Assembly: GCA_002049455.2 (NCBI GenBank)
Contig: KV918768.1
Location: 496,001 to 560,000 of the forward strand
Reading direction: 5' to 3'
DNA length: 64,000 nt
Origin: Porphyra umbilicalis
Taxonomy: Eukaryota; Rhodophyta; Bangiophyceae; Bangiales; Bangiaceae
Under the pieces are notes generated by a model that was not told where the DNA came from, did no database searches, and was given only the letters and a program-made list of their open reading frames with translations. The translations under genes were made by a program, and so were the position numbers. Positions 53,744 to 55,370 of the stretch are shown one piece after another; the stretch's first letter is position 1, and every line of letters begins with the position of its first letter.

Positions 53744-54198
53744 CGCGGTGACGGTGGGGGGGGGTGGAGGGGGGGGGGGGGGGGAGGGGAGGCGCCGGTT
53801 GCTGCCTGCGCAACGCGTGGCGGCGCCGTGCGCGCGGGGTCACGGTCGATGTGGGGGCCTGTGTGTGGTGGACGGGTGCGGGTGCGTACGCGCCAGAAAC
53901 CCATCCCTTTCATGGGCAGACGTTGGCAGAGGCGGGTGCGTCGGCGGCCGTCTGGGGAGAACCGGTGGGCGGCATGGCGTCGGGGAGACAGCGAGCGAGG
54001 AGGCTTGACCGGCCGCCAAGATGTACTATACATGGTCCTGGCATGCGGGAACACAATCATCGGTGGGCGACGTCGACGACCCCCAAGAAACACCCGTACA
54101 GCCACATGCGTCGCCAATAAAGAAGAAATACGTAGGCACACGACGCACACCCGGCACGCAGGGCTGCTGTCGCCGAGAGAGCGGAACCGCGCCACCCT
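53744..54198. other. Spacer
   Basis: 3' flank of the plastid thioredoxin-fold gene, which ends at 54199 on the minus strand. AATAAAGAA at 54116-54124 lies on the plus strand. No poly(A) signal was seen on the minus strand. Confidence 0.35.
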
Positions 54199-55370
54199 CT
54201 ACGAGTCGTACGTGCGGCACTCATCGCTCTCCGGCGTCTCCTTGCACAGCTTCTCCAGCACCGGATCCGTGGCCTGCGGGGCCACCGTCACGGGCACCAC
54301 GGGCGTGACGCTCGCCACCGTCGCCGTCGTCACCGCCGTCGACCCGTCCGCGGTCGTCACGGCGGTGGCCACGACCGTCGGCCCGCCGCCGCCGCCGAGC
54401 GGGCCATCGGCGCCGCCGTCAGACTCCCCCCCCCCCCAGCGCCGCCCGGCCCGTACGTGTCGGTGAGGTAGTCGACGATGGAGGCGCTTTCAAACATCGC
54501 CACCCCCGTGTTGGGGTCGACCAGGTAGGGCACCTGGAAGCGGCCGGTGAGCTCCTTGAGCTCCGCCCGCTTGACGCTCCCCCGCGCACACGTGTGCAGC
54601 AGGTGAGGCAGGCCGAGCTCGCACAGCCGCTCGGAGACGACTTTGCAAAAGGGGCTCGCCTCGTACGCCCACAGCTCGATGAGCTCGGGGCCCGGCGGCA
54701 GGCGCCCTTCCGTGGCCGACCCGCCACGCATGCCGCGAAAGGCCGAAGCGGCGCCCGCGGTGAGCGTCGTCAGCTGGCCGAGCGACAGGCTGAGCGGCAC
54801 CGCCCCGTCGGCGTACGTTTCAAACAGGTACTTGATAATCTCGTCCGACTCGTAGCCCGCCCAGCCCGTGTTGGGGTCTTCCAGGTAGGGGAACATGGCC
54901 TTGCCGCCCACGTCCGCGACGTAGGCGCGGTGGGTGGTCTCGCCCTTGGGCGTCGGCTTGACAATGACATCCACGTCGACGATGGTGAGGGCCTCCCGCA
55001 CCTTGCGACAAAAGGGGCACGCCGTAAACTCATAGACGACCAGCGGCTTGGCGGGCCGCGTCGCGGGGAGCACCGACGACGATTCCGTAAATTGGCCGTC
55101 GACCACCGACGGCTTGTAGCCGGCAACGAGCGTGCCAGAGGCGCCGCGGACGGCCAAACCGAGGGCGCCCCCGAGCACATTGAGGGCATTGTCGGGGCGC
55201 ACGTAGAAGAGGCGGGGCGTCGGCGCGTCTGGCGTGGGGGGGGGGGGGGGGGCCGACGACATGCGCGCGCCGGCGCCTGCGGCGCGGCGGAGGGCGGGGC
55301 GGCCGGCCAGCGACAGGCGTGGGGCCAGGGGCAGGCGCGTCAGGACGGGGGTGGGGGCCACAAACGCCAT
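54199..55370 (-). CDS. Plastid tandem GST_N/glutaredoxin-like protein with CP12-like C-terminal tail
   Basis: Residues 1-36 (MAFVAPTPVLTRLPLAPRLS) form a transit-like leader that shares MAFV with the cyclophilin. Two thioredoxin-fold domains of the GST_N type follow: 108-190 with TACPFCRKVREAL (C118, C121), and 230-306 with EASPFCKVVSERL (one Cys). Each continues to a conserved FPYLEDPNTG or VPYLVDPNTG loop with the cis-Pro. This is the layout of plant plastid tandem GST_N proteins. In the assembled frame the protein ends at 54357. However, a single-base change in the C run at 54426-54437 opens a 75-residue tail. It is Gly-rich, then Thr/Val/Ala-rich, then DPVLEKLCKETPESDECRTY followed by DS and a stop at 54199. 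Cys376-x8-Cys385 and DECRTYD match the C-terminal GAPDH-binding motif of CP12 and GapB. With the correction the product has 390 residues. The main domains are certain; the tail depends on the run length. Confidence 0.82.

Follow-up and report, generated by a model that had tools for sequence, protein, structure and literature searches.

The locus considered here raises two questions: whether a plastid-type protein of the glutaredoxin/GST type ends in a redox tail of the CP12 type, which in the assembled DNA lies one base out of frame, and what such a tail may do. The window, that is, the whole 64-kb stretch of DNA that was analysed (G000:C8:496001-560000), is part of an 83.8-Mb assembly and has a GC content of 67.5%. 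All features of the gene are on the minus strand.

The main coding part (55370–54438) begins with an ATG at 55370 and an N-terminal leader starting MAFV, followed by two GST_N/glutaredoxin-like domains. As assembled, its frame is open from the ATG to a stop at 54357. An hmmscan of the main-frame protein shows GST_N_3, GST_N_2 and Glutaredoxin, all above the Pfam cut-offs (Glutaredoxin score = 32.6 bits). The first domain is found at 55034–54810 (GST_N_3, residues 113–187) and includes the dithiol motif CPFC at 55008–55019; the second is at 54659–54459 (GST_N_2, residues 238–304) and includes the motif SPFC at 54645–54656. A glutaredoxin-type CP[FY]C active-site motif is situated in a thioredoxin fold. 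The thioredoxin-fold GST_N domain that is typical of GSTs is present in two copies, both by hmmscan and in a structure model. No GST_C family, i.e. the all-helical C-terminal domain of GSTs, was detected by hmmscan, and the AlphaFold model of the Gracilaria relative (P0010, see below) has only short helices outside of the two folds. The MAFV leader, together with a chloroplast homologue, is at most suggestive of plastid targeting of the window protein. At E ≤ 0.001, the assembly contains just one copy of the gene. It should be noted that a 17-base G/C run is present within the leader-coding part of the same gene.

The tail frame (54199–54489) is open and ends in ...TDPVLEKLCKETPESDECRTYDS, followed by a stop codon at 54199–54201. 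A low-complexity linker (SDGG...TVAPQAT, 54425–54268) shares the segments SDGG and PTVVATAVTTA with the two relatives P0001 and P0002. It is followed by the CP12 C-terminal motif DPVLEKLCKETPESDECRTYDS at 54267–54202, which is kept in relatives and whose two cysteine codons are at 54244–54246 and 54217–54219. The hmmscan match to the Pfam CP12 family (PF02672) has 23.3 bits (cut-off 22.7, E = 1.1e-4) and covers profile positions 50–70 of 70; it is the last 21 residues of the tail that match the end of this profile. The tail also matches the solved Arabidopsis CP12-2 in the PDB with E about 3e-5. Thus the original prediction of a CP12-type tail beyond the second GST_N domain is borne out, with the tail length of 75 residues amended to 74 after the run. 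As in stand-alone CP12, there is a C-terminal Cys-x8-Cys, with ECRxY[DE] at the very end. The AWD_VEE core and the N-terminal, PRK-binding half of CP12 are absent.

The tail was the sole match at E ≤ 10 (E = 0.0142) when all six frames of the 83.8-Mb assembly were searched with PF02672, and no match in the whole assembly reached E ≤ 0.001, thus the motif by itself is modest evidence. The base composition of the tail frame resembles that of a coding sequence. GC by codon position is 0.68/0.61/0.95 (GC3 of 0.947 over the tail frame) vs 0.69/0.54/0.89 in the main frame, and directly downstream (53900–54198) it is flat, 0.64/0.63/0.66.

With the joined reading as query, a protein search yielded 1146 homologues, 120 of which were listed, and all counts that follow are among these 120. 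The tail is present in a single unbroken frame in 39 of them, i.e. as a CP12 C-terminal segment on the C-terminus of another plastid protein. Tail bearers include Pyropia vietnamensis MMPV_005835 (P0002, Bangiales), Gracilaria domingensis (P0010, Florideophyceae) and Agarophyton chilense (P0011); two of the tail-bearing sequences (P0011 and P0013) have transcript-style names. The original prediction held that the tail is fused to a glutaredoxin/GST-like protein, and also that red algae whose orthologues lack it would speak against the fusion. The first part agrees with the two GST_N and the Glutaredoxin matches and with the unbroken relatives. The second turned out in favor of the fusion, since Pyropia, Gracilaria and Agarophyton carry the tail in one frame; Rhodosorus, Timspurckia and the listed translation of P0003 are without it.

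The Cys-x8-Cys spacing is found in 37 of the 39 tail-bearing listed sequences. The remaining two (P0038 and P0043) show C-x10-C, a spacing that to our knowledge is not known to bind, and these count against the main explanation given below. In the 37 C-x8-C fusions the invariant residues, numbered from the first cysteine, are D(-7), L(-4), C0, P4, E8, C9, R10 and Y12. A set of stand-alone CP12s was used for comparison (120 listed of 258 found); C0, P4, E8, C9, R10 and Y12 are invariant in all 120 listed as well. The ends of the proteins are also alike: the tyrosine is followed by two residues in 36 of the 37 fusions and by one residue in the other, and the corresponding numbers are 119 and 1 among the 120 listed CP12s. 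A D-x-x-L segment precedes the first cysteine in all 37 fusions. Stand-alone CP12s show D-x-L in 38 of the 120 listed, and D-x-L is seen in four red or red-like sequences (P0122, P0136, P0139 and P0201). D-x-x-L marks out the fused tails, and points to a single event of origin. The AWD.VE core is found in none of the 39 listed fusions, vs 120 of 120 listed CP12s.

The linker is 31–111 residues long (median 43) in the 39 listed relatives. CP[FY]C of domain 1 is kept in all 39. The domain 2 cysteine is kept in only 8 of the 38 tail-bearing sequences that could be scored, vs 75 of the 80 tail-less listed ones. Together, these two counts indicate that domain 1 has become the one on which the fused proteins depend. 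A search with the tail-region protein alone, over 80 candidates, picked up P0002 and P0001 and no others. These two are the closest unbroken relatives listed, and the precomputed Pfam annotation gives neither of them a CP12 tag, which counts against the main explanation. On the strength of the tail-bearing relatives, the locus represents a conserved red-algal CP12-tail fusion.

The structure of the fusion was modelled with the Gracilaria sequence (AlphaFold, 44 sequences; mean pLDDT 84.6, pTM 0.80). In the model, two thioredoxin-like folds are followed by a linker of low confidence and by a tail helix at residues 338–346 (block mean pLDDT 86). Foldseek gave no match to this model at E ≤ 0.001, the best hits being GST and Grx2 chains, and with VIA the top Z was 7.5 over 90 residues, i.e. 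below 8; both results count against the main explanation.

The reading that we favor, with a probability of about 0.72, is that the oxidised tail tethers the glutaredoxin-like protein to A4-GAPDH as CP12 does. The gene would be a nuclear one, from a red alga of Bangiales type, and would encode a plastid-type protein with two glutaredoxin/GST_N folds, a linker and a CP12 C-terminal segment. In an oxidised stroma, a disulfide would form between the two tail cysteines and the tail would fold into the CP12 hairpin. By homology, this hairpin would enter the cleft of A4-GAPDH (GapA) and displace Arg77 from NADPH in the manner of CP12 and the GapB extension, and reduced thioredoxin would free the tail again. 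The net effect would be a dark- or oxidation-dependent tether of the glutaredoxin-like domain to GAPDH. The likeliest purpose may be local thiol chemistry on GAPDH, e.g. removal of glutathione from the catalytic cysteine, and/or an additional inhibition of GAPDH that competes with CP12. Bridging to PRK of the CP12 kind would not be expected because the N-terminal half of CP12 is absent.

Several observations bear on this proposal. The oxidised tail of GapB is described as drawing Arg77 from NADPH, and oxidised CP12 as binding A4-GAPDH (PMC3838966); the same source describes red algae as having A4-GAPDH only. Arg77 and the S-loop arginines of GAPDH are reported to contact CP12 (PMC3728087). A plastid-type GapA is present in the assembly (L005, contig 86; its closest PDB entry is chloroplast GapA), and it has kept Arg77 (in VSNRD) and the S-loop arginines. 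The invariant GAPDH-binding residues in the tail fit an unchanged partner, and a linker of 31–111 residues is long enough for a tether. The tail thus probably docks the protein on GAPDH according to redox state.

This GapA has Gly in place of Ser188, which counts against docking. Ser188 is reported to help bind the NADPH phosphate, to be nearly universal, and to be linked to CP12 contacts as well (PMC3728087).

Other observations on GAPDH and PRK sequences were made in the assembly. PRK is present twice (L011, contig 71 and L012, contig 530); the two genes are 94.7% identical across 1309 bases and are either paralogues or haplotypes. A fragment of the GAPDH S-loop, in a 129-residue frame, is found at four other places (L006–L009; contigs 346, 79, 174 and 266). 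These lie in repeats of 1.2–2.3 kb with 93%–99% identity from contig to contig, which looks like the capture of part of a GAPDH gene by a dispersed repeat.

An extended form of the proposal is that red algae have a redox enzyme devoted to GAPDH: on oxidation or in the dark, this glutaredoxin-like protein would dock into the GAPDH active-site cleft by the CP12 tail that it carries, and would protect or deglutathionylate the catalytic cysteine. In this species, where no stand-alone CP12 was found, it would perhaps be the last protein with a CP12 GAPDH-binding tail. This extended form we regard as speculative and rather doubtful.

Alternatively, the tail may merely inhibit GAPDH, with the glutaredoxin-like domains acting as a passive carrier or having an unrelated job. 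The loss of the domain 2 cysteine from most of the tail-bearing sequences is in line with this, but a passive carrier need not keep the domain 1 dithiol, which is present in every fusion listed. We consider this alternative unlikely.

A second alternative concerns the 12 consecutive C (read as G in the coding strand) at 54426–54437, which separate the two frames. The original prediction was that a one-base shift in this run joins the tail, and indeed 13 C places it in frame, as do 10 and 16; with 12 the protein ends at 54357. If the 12-C run is real, the tail may have been lost recently, or the run may be a length-variable on/off switch of the tail. The assembly does read 12 C, and the gene as assembled stops at 54357 without a tail, which counts against the main explanation; so does the listed translation of P0003, the nearest listed relative, which is without a tail as well. 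Long G/C runs are common locally: the 64-kb window has 52 G/C runs of at least 9 (30 of them of at least 12), several of them in coding stretches, vs two A/T runs of at least 9. The same counts indicate a site that is liable to errors or polymorphism in length, and assemblies are known to be error-prone in homopolymers of this size. In addition, the tail frame is open up to the conserved last residue with a coding-like GC3. A tblastn search with the unbroken P0001 gave two abutting pieces: residues 1–319 match frame -3 at 55370–54426 with 84% identity, and residues 314–390 match frame -2 at 54435–54205 with 73% identity across these 77 residues. A true end of the protein at 54357 is thus quite improbable, and the break between the frames most probably reflects a miscounted homopolymer in the assembly or a local polymorphism. 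A short intron in place of the C run is disfavored, as the flanking TYGPGG and SDGG are kept in P0001 and P0002.

A third alternative is that the target of the tail is the protein that carries it, i.e. that when oxidised the tail folds back and blocks the glutaredoxin-like active site with no involvement of GAPDH. The GapB extension is a precedent in that it is auto-inhibitory (PMC3838966), and the tail helix has a fair predicted confidence in the full-length P0010 model, which could reflect packing. However, the GapB extension blocks GapB because GapB itself is GAPDH. In addition, the tail keeps the GAPDH-binding consensus residues, and this would not be expected if it had acquired a new partner within its own protein. 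This possibility appears very unlikely. Finally, a chance match, or a tail that is a separate small gene downstream, is rejected in spite of the whole-genome E-value of the motif alone, because 39 of the 120 listed homologues, including the transcript-style-named P0011 and P0013, encode the tail in the same protein. Docking on GAPDH remains the preferred reading.

The tail is not universal in red algae, since it is absent in Rhodosorus marinus (P0042, Stylonematophyceae) and in Timspurckia oligopyrenoides (P0007, filed under Porphyridiales). It is absent in the listed plant sequences as well. The domains, with the tail left out, were used for a tree of 40 tail-bearing sequences (the window included) and 16 tail-less ones. 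Two changes are needed to account for the distribution of the tail on this tree, and the AU test does not reject a single tail-bearing clade (p = 0.472). Two tail-less groups (P0045/P0061 and P0047/P0063/P0065) are close to tail-bearing sequences, so that one gain followed by loss, or two gains, are both possible; these five sequences could be from algae with red-derived plastids. P0003 has 93% identity over 83%, and its listed translation shows unrelated letters right after GGSGG. This may represent an unspliced intron at the domain–tail junction or another frame break.

Stand-alone CP12 is found in addition to the fusion in both Pyropia vietnamensis (P0122) and Agarophyton (P0136). Thus the fusion is not a general replacement of CP12, and the idea that CP12 is missing from Bangiales is rejected by the Pyropia protein. 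In the present assembly, a search for stand-alone CP12 with PF02672 and five protein queries, exon by exon and with few candidates scored, gave only the tail and weak stray places on contigs 49, 379, 10, 119, 510, 4 and 55. Those on contigs 49, 4, 379, 55 and 119 were inspected (55 and 119 in BLAST alignments) and none is a CP12; those on contigs 10 and 510 show up just as short stray alignments. The place on contig 4 is a leader-like match to residues 2–62 of P0122. At this locus (L020, 286891–287070), a leader like that of the Pyropia CP12 is followed by a short Cys-pair protein (AKDCIDEGCEIN), which is not CP12. An intron-split gene or an assembly gap would give the same search picture, so CP12 may still be present and its loss in this species is at most a possibility.

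A CP12-type tail is the established means of attaching a protein to photosynthetic GAPDH through a disulfide. In the open-access literature searched, no account was found of a CP12 tail on a GST_N or glutaredoxin protein, which is consistent with the earlier statement that no such fusion had been described. If the present reading is correct, a third major plastid lineage has reused the CP12 tail independently, and a function could be proposed for a two-domain plastid thioredoxin-like family that is unnamed in plants.

Several known systems can be compared with the fusion. GapB, adenylate kinase 3 of Chlamydomonas and argininosuccinate lyase are described as tail carriers, with the GAPDH interaction conserved in the first two (PMC9406205). 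The GapB extension of the streptophyte A2B2-GAPDH is, as here, a CP12 C-terminal half at the C-terminus of another plastid protein, with two cysteines eight residues apart and an acidic end (PMC3838966, PMC4436894); however GapB is itself a GAPDH and its tail is auto-inhibitory, whereas here the carrier is glutaredoxin/GST_N-like and is found in red algae. In adenylate kinase 3, the CP12-type tail is likewise carried by an unrelated plastid protein and interacts with GAPDH (PMC9406205), but enzyme and lineage are different and the present carrier has a redox motif of its own. Argininosuccinate lyase has the CP12-like C-terminus in common, on a different enzyme (PMC9406205). In CBS-CP12 a CP12 domain is also fused behind another domain, but the carrier domain differs, the protein is described from cyanobacteria only, and modelling is reported to argue against its binding to GAPDH (PMC3906501). 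The plant AT5G03880-type thioredoxin-family protein, seen in Arabidopsis chloroplasts (PMC7349189), has a homologous two-GST_N body (about 50%–55% identity across roughly two thirds of the query) but is without a CP12 tail. Stand-alone red-algal CP12s (P0122 of Pyropia, P0136 of Agarophyton and P0201 of Galdieria) display the same C-terminal motif as the fusion; they differ in having about 75 mature residues and the AWD.VE core, and DPL where the fusion tail has D-x-x-L, one residue more. The kind of fusion, a CP12 tail on another plastid protein, is thus already known, and the glutaredoxin-like carrier in red algae appears to be new.
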